A DNA stretch of 41,805 nt from Puniceicoccus vermicola. Lineage in GTDB: Bacteria > Verrucomicrobiota > Verrucomicrobiia > Opitutales > Puniceicoccaceae. A program made the position numbers and the translations under genes. Positions 6,158 to 16,654 of the stretch are shown here, one piece after another. The notes beneath the pieces are model-generated. The model was not told the origin of the DNA. It did no database searches and worked only from the letters and a program-made list of their open reading frames with translations. The first letter of the stretch is position 1. Every line of letters starts with the position of its first letter. Location of the stretch: positions 1 to 41,805 of the forward strand of contig NZ_JACHVA010000018.1 in the NCBI RefSeq assembly GCF_014230055.1. The letters run 5' to 3'.

Positions 6158-8338
6158 CTAGTTCAGAGTTCTCGCCAAAACCTCCAACTGTCCGGGGCGC
6201 GGAAGGTCCACGAAGCGAATGCTGAATCCCCCGACGCGCACCATCAGGTGTCCCCACTTTTCCGGTTCGCGCATTGCCGCTTCCATGTCGTCCCGGGAAA
6301 CCACGGTCACCATGGCCTGCGCTCCTCCGTGACGGAAATAGGTCCGCAGCAGCGCATCGAACTTCGGCCGCATCGCCCCGAACCATTCTTTCGAGAATTT
6401 CATATTCTGCACCGCCCCGGCATGGAGGGAAGGATCCAGTTTTACCAGCGAGTTCAAAAAGGCCGTGACCCCGTTGAGATCGCTCCCCGAGGAGGGGTTG
6501 TTGGCGTTGGCCATCGGCTGTCCGGACTTACGGCCGTCGGCACTCGCGCATGTCTTCCAACCGAGCACGGTATTGGCCCAATTGTTGATGACCACGACCA
6601 AATAGCTGTCCAACCCGACCCGTTCCGCCTGCTTCGAGGTTTCCGCACAAATGTGTTCATGAACCTTGCGAGCCATGGCATCGGCCAGCCCTTCATCGTT
6701 GCCATATTTACTGACTTGGCGACAGGCGGCCTGAATCTCGGAAAAACCTTCAAAGTTGGCATCCATCGCCTCGACGAGTTGGGGCAAAGTGAATCGCCTC
6801 TGGCGGTAGACCAATTCCTCGATCACGTGCAAACTGTCCGCGGCATTCGTGTTGCCGTAGGTTTCCAAACATCCTCCGAGGAAGCGTGCCCCACCCCCGA
6901 AGGCAGACTTCTTTCGCTTCACACAATCCGAAGTCAAGGCGCTGATAAAGGCCAGAGGAGCCTCTTGGGCCATGACGTCATACTCCAACTTCTGCTGAAG
7001 CGCCAAAGCGGTCACATGGTGATCGACCACCCGGCAATAGCCCTCCCAAAGCGCATCGAAGTCCTGGTAGTCTGTGATCGCGGGAAAATCCTCAACGACC
7101 TTTCGTCCGGTATTGGGGTCCCGCCCGCCGTGCAGAGTCACCTCCAAGGCTTTGAGCAAATTGATTACTCCATTCGGAGAACCTTCGCTGTAGTGACTCA
7201 GGACATACTCGCCACAACCGTAGGGAGTGTATTGCTCGGCCATGTCGAGACTGACCCCAAAAGCCTTCTGCACCGCCGGAATGTTGACCTCGTCGTTGTA
7301 GAGCATCGGGAAGGTGCACCCCTCCCCAATCGCATCGATGGCACGCTCCCACAGCTCGGGGTTTTGACCGTCGTAAAACCGCAGGGAGAGTTGAGGCTGA
7401 TTGAGCCGGACTTTCCGGGTCCCCTCGATCGCGAGTAGGGCGAATTCATCCGCCGCCTCTTCGTCGGGCCTCCCCCGCCCTCCTACGATCAGCCGATTGT
7501 CATACATATTGTCGTAAGCATGCATCAACCGCCAAAGACCGCAGACCAGCTCCAACGCTTCTTCACGGCGCAAAATCCCCTGCTGCAAATCCGCCTGGAG
7601 GAAGGGCCCCAACGCCACGTCGAGGCGCCCGTAGTTCCAGGTTCCCGAGTGAAGGGCGTAGAGCCAGAAGAGTTGAATGGCTTCCCGAAAATGGCGAGGA
7701 GGCTCATGGCGAATCGCCGCCAGCGTTTTTTCGATCTCCGGAGGAACCGATGCCCGGTAAGAATCGATCGTCTCCCGCAAATGACCGACCACAAACGCAA
7801 AGGGACTGCCCGAGAGTTCGGTCTCCAGTCCATCCAGCCCCAAACGCAACAACTTGGGAAAGTCCAAAGACGAGCCCGCCATGCGGTAGAGCGGAAACGC
7901 CACTCCGCTGTCCTCGGTCCACGCATCGGAAGGAAGACGCTCCGAGACCCACTGCGGATAAGAGGCACGGACCTTTTCCACGGTGGTTTTCCCCCGCCAA
8001 TAGCGAGTGATTTCGGCAGCCGCTTCGGCACAGGCCGGATACAGCTTGGCCCCCTCTTCGAGTGCTTGGAAGCAACAATAATACCCCAGATTGACGGGCT
8101 CCGGGCTCAGCCCCGCCAATGGATAGAGGACTCTGCCCGCGAAAACATCGCCGCTTTCCACGGGTTGAAACATCCCCCGGAACTGAACGGACAGAACCGC
8201 CGCCTCACGATCCTCCGGGGAGTTTCCCTCATTCTTGCGATGCTGCTCCGTCAGCTCCCAGGCGTAAAGGATGCCTTTCCGAAAGAGAGCCTCGGAGGCG
8301 AGCCAATGTTCAGGAGAGAGTTCCGACAGGGTTTTCAT
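6158..8338 (-). CDS. glycyl radical enzyme of unassigned subclass
   Basis: This 726-residue protein is a pyruvate formate-lyase-like glycyl radical enzyme. The C-terminal radical loop reads RVGGFSIRFVDL, with Gly704 the expected radical site. The opposing loop is PYGCGEY, with Cys375 as thiyl residue and Glu377 as the likely base. The CxE spacing is that of the dehydratase/lyase branch (usually GCVE), not the Cys-Cys pair of pyruvate formate-lyase. DGRKSGQPMANANNPSSGSD (601-620) is the conserved segment before the final domain, with several family residues changed. Length is slightly below the common 780-850. The substrate cannot be read from sequence. It overlaps the upstream TIM-barrel gene by 29 bases. 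A polyol, sugar acid or related hydroxylated compound is a guess from its neighbours. Confidence 0.88.
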   Translation of the reverse strand: MKTLSELSPEHWLASEALFRKGILYAWELTEQHRKNEGNSPEDREAAVLSVQFRGMFQPVESGDVFAGRVLYPLAGLSPEPVNLGYYCCFQALEEGAKLYPACAEAAAEITRYWRGKTTVEKVRASYPQWVSERLPSDAWTEDSGVAFPLYRMAGSSLDFPKLLRLGLDGLETELSGSPFAFVVGHLRETIDSYRASVPPEIEKTLAAIRHEPPRHFREAIQLFWLYALHSGTWNYGRLDVALGPFLQADLQQGILRREEALELVCGLWRLMHAYDNMYDNRLIVGGRGRPDEEAADEFALLAIEGTRKVRLNQPQLSLRFYDGQNPELWERAIDAIGEGCTFPMLYNDEVNIPAVQKAFGVSLDMAEQYTPYGCGEYVLSHYSEGSPNGVINLLKALEVTLHGGRDPNTGRKVVEDFPAITDYQDFDALWEGYCRVVDHHVTALALQQKLEYDVMAQEAPLAFISALTSDCVKRKKSAFGGGARFLGGCLETYGNTNAADSLHVIEELVYRQRRFTLPQLVEAMDANFEGFSEIQAACRQVSKYGNDEGLADAMARKVHEHICAETSKQAERVGLDSYLVVVINNWANTVLGWKTCASADGRKSGQPMANANNPSSGSDLNGVTAFLNSLVKLDPSLHAGAVQNMKFSKEWFGAMRPKFDALLRTYFRHGGAQAMVTVVSRDDMEAAMREPEKWGHLMVRVGGFSIRFVDLPRPGQLEVLARTLN

Positions 8339-9149
8339 TTGAGGTTAAAATCGGTTTCAAGTAATCGCGAAAGCGAACATTCACATCCCAGGCATCCGCC
8401 AGCGGTCGCCCGGTAAAAGGTTCGACCGGCATGTAGGGCGGCGGGCCAAATTCCGGAGTGATCGTGAGAAAGGAAGCGCCCGCCTTCTTCCGCACATCGA
8501 GAATACGTTTCCAAAGATCCAAGTGCAGGTCTGTCCAATCGCGATACTCCGGAGCCAGAGGATCCGGGACCTGCGGGCCCTCGGAAAATCCGACCCGTGC
8601 ATGAATGTGGGAGCTGTGCCGGATGGCCAGTTCCACGGTCTCCGATTGGTTGCGGAGATCGCTCTCGTGCACACAGAACCAATGGGAAAAGTCTGCATTC
8701 AGACGAAGTTCCGGGATCTCCCGCAGCAGGTCGCGGGTCATAGGACCGCTACCAGTCGGACGGCCCCGATGCGTTTCCTGCGTGAAGAGAATCCCCGACT
8801 CCTCCGAGAGCCGACAAGCCTCCCGATAAATCCTGCAGTTCTCGGCAAAGCCGAACACATCGCAACCGGTATGACTGTTGATCAGCAACGGCTCGGACTC
8901 CTCAGCTTTGGCAAAACGCTCCTGCAGTGACCGCAGATGATCCTCGGGCGTCTCGCCCTCGGTGATGATCTGGGCCACCAAGAGCAGCCCGTGATCGGAA
9001 ACACGGGCTGCTATCTCGGAAGCGCTTTCCGGCTGAGCCGGTAAGTAAATCTCCACCGCCTCGAAACCGTCGGCTGCGGCCCGCTGGAGAAAATCTTCCA
9101 GCGGGTCGTCCCACATTTCCCATTTCGATTTGGTGAAGAGAAGTTTCAT
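8310..9149 (-). CDS. sugar isomerase/epimerase-like TIM barrel (xylose isomerase-like, AP_endonuc_2)
   Basis: This 279-residue protein has the pattern of the xylose isomerase-like TIM barrel family, which binds a divalent metal and isomerises or epimerises sugars and related polyols. The expected metal ligands appear at strand ends: Glu125 in QETHRGR, Asp153 in NADFSHW, His181/His183 in HIHARVG and Glu233 in TPEFGP. No signal peptide is present, so it is cytoplasmic. It lies four bases after the oxygenase gene and overlaps the glycyl radical enzyme gene by 29 bases, so it very likely acts on the same pathway intermediate. The exact reaction is unknown; hydroxypyruvate isomerase, inosose and tagatose epimerase relatives share this fold. 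Confidence 0.82.
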   Translation of the reverse strand: MKLLFTKSKWEMWDDPLEDFLQRAAADGFEAVEIYLPAQPESASEIAARVSDHGLLLVAQIITEGETPEDHLRSLQERFAKAEESEPLLINSHTGCDVFGFAENCRIYREACRLSEESGILFTQETHRGRPTGSGPMTRDLLREIPELRLNADFSHWFCVHESDLRNQSETVELAIRHSSHIHARVGFSEGPQVPDPLAPEYRDWTDLHLDLWKRILDVRKKAGASFLTITPEFGPPPYMPVEPFTGRPLADAWDVNVRFRDYLKPILTSNENPVGTLS

Positions 9150-9153
9150 GCGA

Positions 9154-9972
9154 TCAGTGTGCTTTGACCCCCAACTGCCGGCGCAGCTCGTTGATGTGCG
9201 CGTAACTCTTCGTCGGATCGGCCATCGGTTGATTCAAAAGATTCTTCCCCCGGGCCATGTACATGAGGTGACGGTCGTGATAGTCCTCGTTCAATTTGGA
9301 AGAGGCCGGGATGAAACGCAGGGTCCAGCCACAACGACGCATATCCGAGGTATTGGGAGGGCTTCCGTGCTGAGTGCGGGCATCGTGCAACGAACATTGA
9401 TTCCGTTGGAGTTCACAAGGCACGGCCAACTCGTCCTTCCGCTGGCTCTTGACGATCTCGGTATCGAAAACACTCTTCGTCACATCGACTCCCTCGTAAT
9501 CGGAGAATCCCATTTTCCCGGTATTGTGAGTCCGCGGGATGACGTACATGCAGCCGTTCTTCTTCGTCGAGGGATCGATGGCCAACCACACGGTCGCGAC
9601 TTCCATCGGGTCGAGCATGCGGCGCCAATAGGCACTATCCTCATGCCAGGGCACCCGACGGCCATCCCCTTGCGGCTTGCAGATAAAGTGGGTGGAGAAA
9701 AGAATGATATCCGGCCCGAGCAACGGCTCGACCAGGTCCACGACCTCGGGAGCAAGCGCCCAGTCCAGGAGCTTCGGATCCGCAAAGTGAGGCGTGTCCA
9801 TCTGCTCCGGACGCTCGTCTTTCGGCCAAGCGGCCAGCTTTTCATCAAAATAATCCGAAAGGGCTTCGAATTTATCGTCCGCAAACACTTTGCCCTTCGG
9901 GATGACGTATCCCTCGGTTTTGTAGTGTTCGACTTCTTCGGGAGTGAGGCGTGGGTTGGTTGTGGTAGTCAT
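9154..9972 (-). CDS. phytanoyl-CoA dioxygenase (PhyH) family oxygenase
   Basis: This 272-residue protein belongs to the PhyH family of Fe(II)/2-oxoglutarate-dependent oxygenases, which hydroxylate small molecules using O2. The iron-binding facial triad is visible: His110-x-Asp112 in PWHEDSAYW and the distal His202 in QHGSPPN, followed by the arginine-rich segment (MRRCGWTLRF, 211-220) that usually contacts 2-oxoglutarate. No signal peptide is seen. It is the first gene of the minus-strand operon, starting 72 bp from the divergent AraC gene. Its substrate is unknown; bacterial PhyH proteins act on very varied compounds. An O2-dependent enzyme in the same transcript as a glycyl radical enzyme is unusual. 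Confidence 0.85.
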   Translation of the reverse strand: MTTTTNPRLTPEEVEHYKTEGYVIPKGKVFADDKFEALSDYFDEKLAAWPKDERPEQMDTPHFADPKLLDWALAPEVVDLVEPLLGPDIILFSTHFICKPQGDGRRVPWHEDSAYWRRMLDPMEVATVWLAIDPSTKKNGCMYVIPRTHNTGKMGFSDYEGVDVTKSVFDTEIVKSQRKDELAVPCELQRNQCSLHDARTQHGSPPNTSDMRRCGWTLRFIPASSKLNEDYHDRHLMYMARGKNLLNQPMADPTKSYAHINELRRQLGVKAH

Positions 9973-10013: not shown

Positions 10014-10037
10014 CAATAGCATAAAAGTGCTCTATTG
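10014..10037. promoter_or_regulatory. inverted repeat between the divergent phyH and araC genes
   Basis: CAATAG (10014-10019) and CTATTG (10032-10037) form a perfect 6-bp inverted repeat with a 12-base spacer. It lies in the 72-bp gap between the divergent phyH operon and AraC gene, ending 7 bp before the AraC start codon. It is the obvious candidate operator for the AraC protein, although AraC proteins more often bind direct repeats. Confidence 0.4.
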
Positions 10038-10044
10038 TGATATC

Positions 10045-11450: not shown

Positions 11451-12986
11451 CTAGTGCGAGGCAATCGGAGGCTCCAGGCCGAGCCGGACATACTGATCCC
11501 GCGGCGCGTCACAGGCCTTCATGTTGCTCGCCAGCAGCGCCAACATCTTCGATTCGACCTCCTCATCCTGAATTGGAGATTCTTGATTCGGATCCAGCTC
11601 CAGGTCGTAGAGGACGGTCTGTTTCGTCTCGGAATCGCGCTCCCAGGACGACTCGTCCGACCATCCCATCCCCGTGCAGTCGATCTGCATGACCTGGCAA
11701 TCTTTCATGAAATCGAATGGTTCCGCCAAGGACATCCGCCCTTTGTAAAAGCTATCCGTTCCGAACGGAGAACGCATATGACAGGGCATGAGCGTATACT
11801 CGGAGATCTTCCCCAACCGCTCCTGCTGGGCACGCATGTAGACATAGCGGCCATCCGTGACATTCACCTGATTCCCGAACTGGCCGAAGATCGCCGACTC
11901 GCGCACCGGTTGATCCGACTCAATGACCGGCGAGAGGTCGTGCCCGGTCATGCTGGCCGGAATTTCCTGATGGAAGAAGCTCAAAAGAGTCGGAGCCAGA
12001 TCGATCGAAGGCTGGACCAGAGACTCACGGGACTCACCCCGCGTTCCAGTACGTGGATCCCAGACGAAGAAGGGAGTCCGCGCGGTTTCCTCCCACCAGG
12101 GCATCATCATCTTCGACCACCAATCGTGCTCACCCAAAAGGAAGCCATGGTCGGTCCACACGACCAGCATGGTATCCTCCCAGAGATTTTCCGCGTCCAT
12201 CTTATCGAGGAGAGTTCCGAGCTTCTCATCGCACATTGAGACCAGCGAAGCATACTCGTAACGCCCGTGCTCGGCGAGATCCAGACGTCCTTGGACCCGT
12301 TCGTAATTCGGCCAGTCAAAATGCGGGCCGTTGTAGTTCTTGTAGTGAGGCTCGTAATAGAGCTCCTTGTACTTCGGCAACGAAAAGAAGGGCTCATGCG
12401 GATCAAAGGTTTCGATCTGGAGGAACCAATTGTCCTCCCCCTTGTTCCGATCGATAAAGTCCAGTCCCGCCCGAAAGACACCGCTCTGAGGTTGCTTGTC
12501 GTCTTCCTGCATCTCCCGACGGTTGATCCAGTCCTGCCGGGCCGGTGCGTAGCCCTTGAGACCGTGCCTCCCTTCCGCATCTTCCGGAATTTCGGGGTCG
12601 CGCACTTGTCCGATCCAGGGATCTCCCTCCTGCCCGCGGAATGCTTCGTAGCTCGAATACTTCGTGTGGTAGTTCGATCCGCCGTCCTCGAAATAATGGT
12701 AGTGGTCGGTGATCAAATGCGTGTAGACGCCGTTCTCCTTCAGAATCCGCGGCATCGACTCGTCGTAGGGCTCCATCGGCCCCCAACTGCGATGCAAAAA
12801 GTTCGGACGGCCGGTATGAAGATCCCGTCGAGCCGGCATACAGGGCATCGAACACACGTAGGAGGTGTCGAAGCGCAACGTTTTCTCGGCCAGGCGCTGG
12901 AAATTCGGAGTATGAGTCCACTCGCAACCGTAGGGCGACAAAAACCGCCGGTTGAGGGAATCGAACATGACCATGATGACTTTCAT
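11451..12986 (-). CDS. sulfatase, S1-like, no signal peptide
   Basis: This 511-residue protein hydrolyses sulfate esters. The maturation motif C-M-P-A-R with Cys49 (to be converted to formylglycine) lies in the family's usual place, followed by LHTGRP. Metal and sulfate ligands include Asp9, Asp195 and His197 (FDPHEP), Asp279-His280 (TDHG) and His287/Lys292 (GEHDWWSK). The N-terminus MKVIMVMFDSLNRRF begins directly with the first catalytic strand, so no export signal exists and the enzyme should act in the cytoplasm. It would need an anaerobic (radical SAM) or FGE-type maturase, not seen in the window. It is downstream of lacI on the same strand with an operator-like site between them, so sugar-dependent control is likely. 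The exact sulfated sugar is unknown. Confidence 0.9.
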   Translation of the reverse strand: MKVIMVMFDSLNRRFLSPYGCEWTHTPNFQRLAEKTLRFDTSYVCSMPCMPARRDLHTGRPNFLHRSWGPMEPYDESMPRILKENGVYTHLITDHYHYFEDGGSNYHTKYSSYEAFRGQEGDPWIGQVRDPEIPEDAEGRHGLKGYAPARQDWINRREMQEDDKQPQSGVFRAGLDFIDRNKGEDNWFLQIETFDPHEPFFSLPKYKELYYEPHYKNYNGPHFDWPNYERVQGRLDLAEHGRYEYASLVSMCDEKLGTLLDKMDAENLWEDTMLVVWTDHGFLLGEHDWWSKMMMPWWEETARTPFFVWDPRTGTRGESRESLVQPSIDLAPTLLSFFHQEIPASMTGHDLSPVIESDQPVRESAIFGQFGNQVNVTDGRYVYMRAQQERLGKISEYTLMPCHMRSPFGTDSFYKGRMSLAEPFDFMKDCQVMQIDCTGMGWSDESSWERDSETKQTVLYDLELDPNQESPIQDEEVESKMLALLASNMKACDAPRDQYVRLGLEPPIASH

Positions 12987-14449: not shown

Positions 14450-16654
14450 ATGAAAGAATTCATCGACACCTGCCCGCCCCCCGAATCCGTTCAGTGGACT
14501 TGGGCCGACCAAGAACATCCGAACCAAACGGTTCTCTTTCGGACAAGAATCACTGGGCTCGAGGACTACGGGAAGATCGCGGTCCAGATCACCGCACAGA
14601 CCCGTTTTTATCTCTACGCCAACGGAGAGTATCTCGGACAAGGCCCCTGCCCTTCCATCTGGCCGGACAGCACCTACAACAGCTACTCCGTCGAGGCGAG
14701 CGAGGGGGTCCTCAACCTCGCGGTCATCGTCCACTCCTACGGTGTCCGCACCCAGAGTCACGCCTTGGCTCCCGCAGGCCTATGGGCTCGTTTGATCGGA
14801 CTCCGAGACGGTTCCTGGATGCCTATCGAGATCGTCCCGGAAGCCTGGAAGCACTGCCCACAGGGAGGCTGGATCTCCACCCAACTCCGGCGGACCTGGG
14901 CAACGGGATGGATGGAGCAATTCGACAGTGCAAAACATCCCGAAGGGTGGCTCGATCCGGACTTCGACGATTCCTCCTGGACAACTGCCACGCGGGTCGG
15001 GCGTCCCGGCAGCACCCTTTCCCCGCGCATGACCCCGGACCTCCGGGAATATTCCGTGCCCGCCACGCGCCTTCGCGCGGTGGCCAAAGTGTCCAACCGC
15101 GCTCCGATCACCGACGAGGGGGAAGGTCAACTCGCGAAGATTCTCGACGAGGAAGCTTGGCAGCCGAAAGAAATCGCTCCGTATCAATCTGACTGGGACC
15201 AAGGTCGGGGCATTCGCATTCCCGCGGGCGAAGAAGGGCTGGCCCTGATGTTCGACCTCGGGGAAGAAATGGTCGGGCAGACCGAGTTTTCCGTCGAAGC
15301 CGCATCCGGAATCGTCGATCACTATGGCGCCGAACTCCTGCGCGACGGACGCCCATGGGCCTTCCGCGGCAACGCCGAGTATGCGACTCGGTGGTTCGCC
15401 TCGGGTCGGAACCCGAACTTTCGGACACTCAACTACAACGGGTTCCGTTACCTTCTGATTGTTCTTCGTCCCGATACGTCTCCGATGCACTTACAGTCGT
15501 TTGGCGTTTGGCGACGGGAAGCCGATATCCGACCGAGTTTAACGTTCGATTCCACGGATCCGGAAATGCAACGTCTCTGGGACGTGAGCATGCGGACCCT
15601 CCAGGTTGCGACCCAGGAGACCAACGTGGATTGCCCGACACGGGAACAAGCCCTCTTCATCGCCGACGGTCTTTGGAACGCTCTCTGGATCGATCAACTC
15701 TTCGACGAGCCGTCCCTCTTCGAGCACTACCTCCGGATTGTCGCCAAAGCCCAGCACGAGAACGGCCTCATGCCCTCGGCGGTCTTCTCCAGCCTCAACC
15801 CGCCGCATTACCTCATCGACTTCTGCCTCATCTTTGTCTGGGGGGTCGATGTCTATCGCCGCCTTCATCCGGAACGGCGCGATCTCGTCGAAGAGCTTCT
15901 CCCCGTCGCCGAACGGACGCTCCGCTGGGCCCAAGACCAAATTGCCGAGTCCGGTTTGATCGAAGTCGACCCTCTGGCAATCGAGAATTACGATGGCGGA
16001 CGCTTCGAAGTGGTCTTTCTCGACCACCCGACCATTTGGCACACCTTCTCGCACCCGGGAATCGAGCGGTCACGCATCCAGCTCGCCCTCAACGCCTTCC
16101 TCGCGATCGCCATCGATGCTTTCTCCGCGTCGGCCGAGGCCCTCGGATACGCCCACAGACTCGACGTCCAACGACTCGACGCCGAGCGTATTCGGAAACT
16201 CTGCCACGAACGCTTTTGGCAGGCAGAACGCGGCTACTACGCCGATTGTTTCAACGAGGAAGACAACGCGCTCAAAGGATGGAGTGCGCAGACGCAAGTC
16301 TTGGCGGTTCTCTCCGGGATCACCGGCGGCGACGACGCCCACCAATTGATGGAGCGCCTGATCCGTGATTGGAAACATCCGAACATCTGCCGCTGCACCC
16401 CTTACTTTTGGGTCTACTTCGCCGAAGCGTTGATTGTTTCCGGTCATTCGGATCAAGTCATGCCGCTGATTCGGGAGGCTTGGTCCGTCATGACCGACGA
16501 TCCCGAAACGACCACGTGGTGGGAAACGTTCGAAGGGAGCGATCGCGATACCCGCTGCCATCCCTGGTCGGCCCTGCCCGCCTGGTTTCTCCAAGCGGAT
16601 GGCCTGAACTTCCGTCTTTGTGGAGAACGCAAAGCGGCAAAACCGACCTCCTAA
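14450..16654 (+). CDS. alpha-L-rhamnosidase-like glycoside hydrolase (GH78-like), cytoplasmic
   Basis: This 734-residue protein has the layout of bacterial GH78 enzymes: N-terminal beta-sandwich domains (a carbohydrate-binding-like segment near residues 45-105 and another near 245-360), then an (alpha/alpha)6 barrel starting near 365, and a small C-terminal part. The signature DCPTREQALFIADGLWNALW begins at Asp394; Glu399 matches the catalytic acid position of the family's DCPxRxE motif. TTTWWE (Glu692) and the later H704-P pair match the second catalytic region (WExW...NHP in relatives). There is no signal peptide, so short rhamnosides would be cut in the cytoplasm. The gene starts a plus-strand unit and is followed 9 bp later by a cellulase-like gene. 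GH78 versus GH106 is not in doubt from motifs, but the linkage is unknown. Confidence 0.82.
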   Translation: MKEFIDTCPPPESVQWTWADQEHPNQTVLFRTRITGLEDYGKIAVQITAQTRFYLYANGEYLGQGPCPSIWPDSTYNSYSVEASEGVLNLAVIVHSYGVRTQSHALAPAGLWARLIGLRDGSWMPIEIVPEAWKHCPQGGWISTQLRRTWATGWMEQFDSAKHPEGWLDPDFDDSSWTTATRVGRPGSTLSPRMTPDLREYSVPATRLRAVAKVSNRAPITDEGEGQLAKILDEEAWQPKEIAPYQSDWDQGRGIRIPAGEEGLALMFDLGEEMVGQTEFSVEAASGIVDHYGAELLRDGRPWAFRGNAEYATRWFASGRNPNFRTLNYNGFRYLLIVLRPDTSPMHLQSFGVWRREADIRPSLTFDSTDPEMQRLWDVSMRTLQVATQETNVDCPTREQALFIADGLWNALWIDQLFDEPSLFEHYLRIVAKAQHENGLMPSAVFSSLNPPHYLIDFCLIFVWGVDVYRRLHPERRDLVEELLPVAERTLRWAQDQIAESGLIEVDPLAIENYDGGRFEVVFLDHPTIWHTFSHPGIERSRIQLALNAFLAIAIDAFSASAEALGYAHRLDVQRLDAERIRKLCHERFWQAERGYYADCFNEEDNALKGWSAQTQVLAVLSGITGGDDAHQLMERLIRDWKHPNICRCTPYFWVYFAEALIVSGHSDQVMPLIREAWSVMTDDPETTTWWETFEGSDRDTRCHPWSALPAWFLQADGLNFRLCGERKAAKPTS

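Follow-up and report, generated by a model that had tools for sequence, protein, structure and literature searches.

A distinct glycyl radical enzyme subfamily in Puniceicoccus vermicola and its possible oxygen-dependent counterpart

Glycyl radical enzymes (GREs) perform some of the hardest known anaerobic bond cleavages, and new subfamilies tend to bring new substrates. A gene in a 41,805-nucleotide stretch of the Puniceicoccus vermicola genome, here called the window, raises the question of whether the GRE it encodes belongs to such a subfamily and, if so, what compound it and its operon partners might act on. The reading frame lies where a preliminary description of the sequence had placed it (Table 1), on a strand that the description did not give. 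The unusual features listed there were all found in the translation, namely, the thiyl loop YGCGEY at residues 373 to 378, the radical loop RVGGFS at residues 701 to 706, and an altered segment, DGRKSGQPMANANNPSSG, beginning at residue 601. The catalytic residues it had named, Cys375, Glu377, and Gly704, align with Cys433, Glu435, and Gly763 of glycerol dehydratase (GDH). The thiyl Cys, catalytic Glu, and radical Gly, an adjoining activating-enzyme gene, and the Pfam PFL-like (307.5 bits; cut-off, 24.3) and Gly_radical (66.5 bits; cut-off, 22.2) domains identify a PFL2-type GRE. The motifs are retained in relatives down to about 31% identity, so their oddities reflect neither chance nor decay. 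From its residues and the adjoining activase gene, the enzyme would be expected to be catalytically competent.

A second copy of the gene, 87% identical to that of the window, lies on contig C95 of the same genome (G000; locus L046, 1245 to 3783). It is truncated, lacking about the first 115 N-terminal residues, and the activase beside it looks intact. Neither a dioxygenase nor a TIM barrel was seen near it on this 9.1-kb contig, where its neighbors are a Gp49/HTH pair resembling a toxin-antitoxin system, a phage-type integrase, and a reverse transcriptase.

The further claim that the enzyme matches no known subclass is supported by the NCBIfam GRE models, whose cut-offs were missed widely. 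The window GRE scored 264 bits with the PFL2-3 subfamily model TIGR01774 (curated cut-off, 678), 212 and 219 bits with the HpsG/HpfG sulfopropanediol dehydratase models NF048011 and NF048009 (cut-off, 1000), 217 bits with HypD (1100), 191 bits with choline TMA-lyase CutC (TIGR04394; 1050), 170 and 162 bits with the arylacetate decarboxylase models IAD (NF033718; 1100) and HPAD (NF033715; 1150), and 70 bits with pyruvate formate-lyase (TIGR01255; 994), having GCGE instead of a Cys-Cys active site. The closest solved relative, glycerol dehydratase, scored 220 bits with the single sequence and 418 bits when the family profile was used. In all, 25 family loci were recovered from 286 genomes of the class, 387 of the phylum, and 52 near genomes, along with genome contigs and plasmids, and in the phylum search a gap separated family GREs (at least 568 bits) from other GREs (at most 332 bits). 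Identity to the window GRE is 72% in Cerasicoccus maritimus and C. frondis, 47.5% on a Persicobacter plasmid, and 36.9% in Parabacteroides distasonis, on a record labeled as a plasmid. The 345 genomes of the class of G595 held no member at a family-like score (best, 393 bits), and a viral contig scan found no family relative among 106 pattern matches. In the phylogeny that the preliminary description had proposed as a check, 23 family rows group as a single clade (SH-aLRT 100; stem length, 1.04 changes per column), with all seven references (GDH, PDD, YbiW, PflD, PflB, CutC, and HypD) outside it and no clustering with a characterized enzyme. This 59-row tree was made by a quick method without bootstrap and omits two family loci, G427 and G217 (a near copy of G112). 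With 25 loci, 23 of them on one branch, the odd motifs are the mark of a clade and not a fluke, and the window GRE thus belongs to a real, uncharacterized PFL2-type subfamily that matches none of the curated models searched. The same tree contains a second uncharacterized-looking GRE clade from this phylum (L021, L025, L028, L062, and L063; one starred clade), with GCNE and RVAGFS motifs.

Residue counts over the aligned family rows and 36 rows of other GREs (one identical pair included) show what sets the subfamily apart. Cys375, Glu377, and Gly704 are each present in 23 of 23 family rows. Gly376 occurs in 22 of 23 family rows versus none of the others, and Gly703 in 22 of 23 versus 2 of 36, so that the RVGG loop by itself is not unique to the family. 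Arg282 and Arg290 are both invariant in the family and occur in 0 and 4 of the other rows, respectively. A core group of 17 rows additionally retains Arg152, Asn586, and His639; a second group of six (G433, G445, G439, G413a, G413b, and G374) is without Arg152 and Asn586, and has His639 in two rows. The substrate contacts of GDH, which we take to be His164, His281, Tyr339, Asp447, and Tyr640 in GDH numbering, are replaced in the window GRE by Gly155 (profile alignment) and Gly232, Asp280, Pro388, and Ile584 (alignment), respectively, with a conservative change of GDH Ser282 to Thr. At the column of residue 155, aligned to GDH His164 by the family profile, most family rows (17 of 23) have Gly and most of the others (27 of 36) have His. 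The pocket comparison proposed in the preliminary description was made by alignment, which shows the contacts replaced; the structural model, built from seven sequences, was of moderate quality (pLDDT 70.5, with several loops below 50) and gave no basis for reading pocket geometry, and its Foldseek search yields the GRE fold only. The glycine next to the catalytic Cys may allow a larger substrate, and the extra arginines could bind an anion.

The GRE gene is part of a tight minus-strand block that runs from a PhyH-type dioxygenase through a TIM barrel and the GRE to a short activating enzyme, with an AraC-family regulator gene divergent from it. Four bases lie between the dioxygenase stop and the TIM barrel start, the TIM barrel frame runs 29 bases into the beginning of the GRE, and another 4-base gap separates the GRE stop from the activase start.

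Table 1. Features of the GRE locus, in window positions
Feature	Positions	Strand	Remarks
GRE-activating radical SAM enzyme, 232 aa	5455..6153	minus	TIGR02494, 264 bits (cut-off, 174); CPLRCAWC
Glycyl radical enzyme (GRE), 726 aa	6158..8338	minus	ATG start; C375 thiyl, E377 base, G704 radical site
Xylose-isomerase-like TIM barrel (sugar epimerase/isomerase or keto-glycoside lyase type)	8310..9149	minus	PF01261, 35.0 bits (cut-off, 31.1)
PhyH-type Fe(II)/2-oxoglutarate dioxygenase	9154..9972	minus	PF05721, 94.7 bits
Operator-like site ATCACAATAGAGCACTTTTATGCTAT	10016..10041	minus	69 bases upstream of dioxygenase start; weak variant, score 7.9 versus locus maximum of 14.2
AraC-family regulator, 274 aa	10045..10869	plus	PF12833 and AraC_binding; divergent, 72 bases from operon

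PFL2-type activases usually carry a Cys-rich insert. In the motif table, the window activase is without this ferredoxin-like insert. Among the activases compared, which exclude that of P. distasonis, short linkers of 48 to 55 residues with 0 or 1 Cys are found in the window, C95, both Cerasicoccus genomes, G138, G089, G112, G305, G371, G498, and G572a; inserts with 7 to 10 Cys are found in G084, G433, G445, G439, G413a, G413b, G374, G427, and Persicobacter, and the linker of G577a is long and contains 1 Cys. The TIM barrel model (pLDDT 76.6) aligns in VIA-align with DgpB-DgpC (Z 19.7) and D-tagatose 3-epimerase (Z 19.2), and it resembles ketose 3-epimerases and keto-glycoside C-deglycosidases generally (Z 17 to 20; 2.8 to 3.8 Å). 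A common fold is no proof of function, and we would place the protein no more narrowly than in a sugar-epimerase-like fold.

Elsewhere in the window, the protein encoded at positions 1339 to 5205 matches PD-Lambda-4_A, a candidate anti-phage protein of PADLOC, over the full length (2014 bits), and its gene lies beside that of a DUF4238 protein (196 to 1164). A sulfatase with an intact C-x-P-x-R signature (CMPAR) adjoins the GRE operon at 11451 to 12986, and positions 14450 to 40259 hold genes for polysaccharide degradation (a rhamnosidase-like protein, a cellulase-like PF12876 protein, an FAD oxidoreductase with a Golvesin domain, CBM9, GH94, and GH3).

The dioxygenase recurs at GRE loci. Its family is found at seven of them (the window, two Cerasicoccus genomes, G138, G089, G498, and the Persicobacter plasmid), with 46 to 78% identity where measured, and its WHEDSAYW and distal His/Arg motifs are present in 17 of 17 relatives examined. 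Four gene orders occur: AraC / PhyH-TIM-GRE-activase (the window, Cerasicoccus, and G138), PhyH / AraC-GRE-activase (G089), AraC / GRE-activase-PhyH (G498), and AraC / PhyH-GRE-activase (Persicobacter). Genome-wide, the first look gave only one dioxygenase candidate in G138, two in G089, and one in G498. The dioxygenase also occurs without a family GRE, in 27 genomes; an AraC gene of the same kind lies beside it in 13 of the 16 such neighborhoods fetched, being missing in G030, G064, and G536 (where the contig ends close by), and one of the 16 (G301) has the TIM barrel too. Conversely, the GRE lies with AraC and without a dioxygenase at the locus in G112, G217, G084, G305, G433, and P. distasonis, the last with AraC downstream, and 11 GRE-only genomes drawn in both the GRE and the dioxygenase searches gave no dioxygenase of the window's family at E 1e-45. 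That these searches drew the same genomes is taken from their equal numbers and handles, and the dioxygenase search left out G577 and G572. In G371, a GH5-type cellulase gene (L073, 1017 to 2393) sits between the GRE and its activating enzyme. Neither the GRE nor the dioxygenase was matched, at the cut-offs applied, in two other genomes of the window's genus (G127 and G203), and the operon may therefore be recently gained or lost. The literature searched, with most subscription journals outside its coverage, gave no description of a PhyH-GRE pairing; queries for GREs with alpha-ketoglutarate-dependent dioxygenases found none, and those with N-acetylmannosamine found nothing apparently relevant.

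When the window AraC was searched against nine other genomes, picked because they carry the GRE or the dioxygenase, the top hit was in every case the gene adjoining one of those two. In a careful 51-row AraC tree, 25 of 28 partner rows fall in a 29-row clade (support, 100/99) that takes in 14 of 14 regulators from dioxygenase-only loci, 6 of 7 from loci with both genes, 5 of 7 from GRE-only loci, and 4 of 23 controls (three different sequences); those of Persicobacter, P. distasonis, and G577 lie outside. The GRE-only regulators of G112 and G217 nest with those of G283 and G262 (dioxygenase-only) and G089 (both genes), again with support of 100/99. Depending on the genome, a single AraC lineage and a 26-bp site of a single type go with the dioxygenase alone, the GRE alone, or both.

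The site matrix (core, ATCAATAnAG-N11-GTCAT) was trained on 13 dioxygenase-only loci, the final form using the best 9 and no GRE locus; the poor training sites were those of G271 (kept, at 9.2), G283, G024, G123, and G530. This was not a blind test, as the motif had been noticed by eye in dioxygenase and GRE promoters before the width and the seed (the G061 site) were chosen. Both strands of each locus were scanned, leaving out G427 and G572b (at a contig end), and distances are counted from start codons that we chose (for G084, base 8226 of L043). For 6 of the 15 GRE-only loci, the highest score of the whole locus lies 69 to 148 bases upstream of the GRE (next best in parentheses): G305, 28.2 (7.0); G112, 17.9 (12.9), and its near copy G217, 17.9 (8.0); G084, 15.8 (9.3); G572a, 15.6 (7.9); and G433, 8.7 (6.0), with per-locus p values of only about 0.006 to 0.02. 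The other 9 of 15 have no top-ranking site before the GRE; G371 scores 15.2 there and 17.5 elsewhere in the locus, and eight (G577a, G577b, G413a, G413b, G445, G439, G374, and P. distasonis) give -2.3 to 9.8, under their locus maxima, with weak scores in G413a, G413b, and G445 and nothing notable in the remaining five. Where both genes are present, G089 has a site before the GRE (10.0) and one before the dioxygenase (9.9; locus maximum, 10.6), G498 scores 11.2 before the GRE (maximum, 11.8), G138 scores 13.4 before the dioxygenase (9.5 elsewhere), and Persicobacter scores 10.6 (maximum, 13.1), while the window and Cerasicoccus have a weaker variant (6.3 to 7.9, under the locus maxima). When three near-identical training sites are removed, the site stays on top in G305, G084, G112, G572a, and G433, and that before the G089 GRE becomes top. 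Among control AraC genes of the clade, which have neither enzyme as a neighbor, the site is found at L204 (17.1) and L205 (18.1 and 16.0), with at most 10.5 and 10.1 at L206 and L207. Since it also occurs beside other neighbors, the site reflects the DNA specificity of the regulator and not one ligand, and as a predicted operator it supports co-regulation of the GRE and dioxygenase more than it does an identical ligand.

Dioxygenase-bearing and GRE-only genomes differ in their respiratory genes. All 6 genomes that carry both enzymes have a haem-copper oxidase (PF00115), as do all 16 that carry the dioxygenase only, versus 1 of 13 with the GRE only, the exception being G577, which has no dioxygenase at either of its two GRE loci. 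For dioxygenase-bearing versus GRE-only genomes (22 of 22 versus 1 of 13), Fisher's test gives p 1.6e-8, counting related genomes as separate; the independent contrasts number three, of which 2.5 on average run as expected and none against, which is not significant. Such a split is expected for any O2-using versus O2-sensitive enzyme and gains meaning from the one regulator lineage that serves both. The window genome (G000; 96% complete) has oxidase genes, and an NrdD search gave no match in it or in G138, G089, G112, G084, and G498; both Cerasicoccus genomes have NrdD and oxidases, and G305 has NrdD, so NrdD does not sort the GRE loci. The Cerasicoccaceae are described as obligately aerobic (PMC10288369).

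Neighboring genes give clues to the substrate, which is probably carbohydrate derived. Many GRE loci are flanked by glycosidases and sulfatases, and their carbohydrate-type neighbors include rhamnosidase-like, GH94, GH3, GH20, GH127, GH5, and GH42 proteins; the epimerase-like fold of the TIM barrel fits this setting. In P. distasonis, the order is ROK kinase, putative ManNAc-6-P epimerase, GRE, and activase, and the G084 GRE adjoins NagA-like and NagB-like genes, both below equivalog cut-offs; these two loci hint at amino sugars. An amino-sugar role was our first idea from them and was set aside, as few loci agree. Genes with the URO-D fold, which is that of corrinoid methyltransferases, accompany the dioxygenase in 4 of the 16 dioxygenase-only neighborhoods fetched. 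In G066, G061, and G283, no more than about 25 bases separate this gene from the dioxygenase, which it follows in the same orientation. In G280, the 26-bp site occurs a second time (L173, 3007 to 3032, minus strand; 18.4), about 70 bases upstream of the URO-D-fold gene, which would place that gene in the same regulon, and a RACo-type corrinoid activator is nearby. In G577b, a URO-D-fold gene lies downstream of the GRE and a GH127 gene, all on one strand; none was recognized in the part of the neighbors scanned in the other 12 dioxygenase-only neighborhoods. Such genes are a hint of methyl transfer, and a substrate carrying an ether or methyl substituent is conceivable, if unlikely. The variety of neighboring glycosidases is as expected for a widespread small substituent. 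In a still more doubtful version, both enzymes would strip the same ether substituent, a methyl ether or another, from sugars derived from glycans, with the dioxygenase hydroxylating it and the GRE eliminating it by radical chemistry. Radical sugar O-dealkylation would then be a new GRE reaction, and the two unrelated enzymes would form an O2-switched pair controlled by a single regulator.

Our results lead us to propose, with about an even chance of being right, that one carbohydrate-derived compound is used by two routes, the GRE serving without O2 and the PhyH dioxygenase with it. As in known GRE eliminases, the adjoining radical SAM enzyme would form a glycyl radical at Gly704, which would move to Cys375; the Cys375 thiyl would abstract a hydrogen from the carbinol carbon of the substrate, Glu377 would accept the hydroxyl proton, and a neighboring C-O (or C-N) bond would be cleaved before Cys375 gives the hydrogen back. 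The TIM barrel, present in some loci only, might process the sugar-like product. The subfamily, or at least its core group, would be the O2-independent counterpart of the dioxygenase, and a single AraC lineage acting through a single operator type would turn on either enzyme or the two together, allowing one compound, or closely related ones, to be used whether or not O2 is present. What we observed is the clade, the operon, a regulator lineage and site type in common, and the oxidase split; GRE activity, the reaction, and a common substrate are inferred. Several points speak against it: the sites at control genes, the 9 of 15 GRE-only loci whose top site lies elsewhere, the few contrasts, the regulators outside the clade, the oxidase of G577, the weak site of the window, and the description of the Cerasicoccaceae as obligately aerobic.

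Other explanations were also weighed. The GRE may open an anhydro-sugar or amino-sugar ether, with the dioxygenase as a partner of convenience. YbiW and PflD, which open 1,5-anhydrohexitol 6-phosphates, offer a precedent, their structures containing 1,5-anhydroglucitol-6-phosphate and 1,5-anhydromannitol-6-phosphate (PMC12441222), and the amino-sugar genes of P. distasonis and G084, the GH20 of Persicobacter, and the invariant Arg282 and Arg290, which could hold an anion, would fit. However, the window operon has no kinase or PTS gene, YbiW and PflD fall outside the family in the quick tree, and amino-sugar genes are found at few loci, which makes this unlikely in our estimation. Somewhat less likely is that the GRE is a standard dehydratase of vicinal diols or polyols whose pocket has drifted, fermentative and unrelated to the dioxygenase: glycerol and propanediol dehydratases are the best sequence and fold matches and the C-x-E pair is retained, but the contacts presumed for GDH are replaced (the residue 155 column among them, where most other GREs have His), the window operon lacks aldehyde-processing and microcompartment genes, and the linkage to the dioxygenase recurs.

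Alternatively, the two enzymes might catalyze successive steps of one pathway, or the dioxygenase might guard the GRE against O2 or sense O2 for it, as the single operon in the window and the like sites before both genes in G089 would allow; the 27 genomes that have the dioxygenase and no family GRE, with AraC beside it in 13 of the 16 neighborhoods fetched, and the 11 GRE-only genomes without a dioxygenase match at E 1e-45 make this improbable. The truncated copy on C95 might suggest that the GRE is degenerate and inactive, which is hardly credible given that the window copy is full length and that catalytic residues and activase genes are retained across the family.

If the pairing of O2-dependent and O2-independent routes is right, the substrate of the dioxygenase, which is easily handled and can be purified in air, would reveal that of the GRE, and the pairing might explain why an O2-sensitive enzyme is kept by bacteria described as obligately aerobic. 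In any case, the subfamily comes with functional handles in its regulator, operator-like site, and O2-using counterpart.

Compared with known systems, the window GRE is nearest in fold to the B12-independent glycerol/1,2-propanediol dehydratases (1r8w, 5i2g, and 9rco; Foldseek E about 1e-28 to 1e-29, TM-score 0.6 to 0.7), with which it has the Cys-x-Glu pair and glycyl loop in common, whereas its chain is shorter, its contacts are replaced, and identity in the Foldseek alignments is about 22 to 24%. With YbiW and PflD it shares Cys-x-Glu and plausibly sugar-derived substrates, but it differs in its neighbors, in having no PTS gene in its operon, and in its position in the tree. HemF/HemN and NrdAB/NrdD are pairs of unrelated O2-dependent and O2-independent enzymes for one step. 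While those pairs have one step in common and for the GRE and PhyH enzymes a common substrate is only proposed, they would likewise be two unrelated enzymes chosen by O2.
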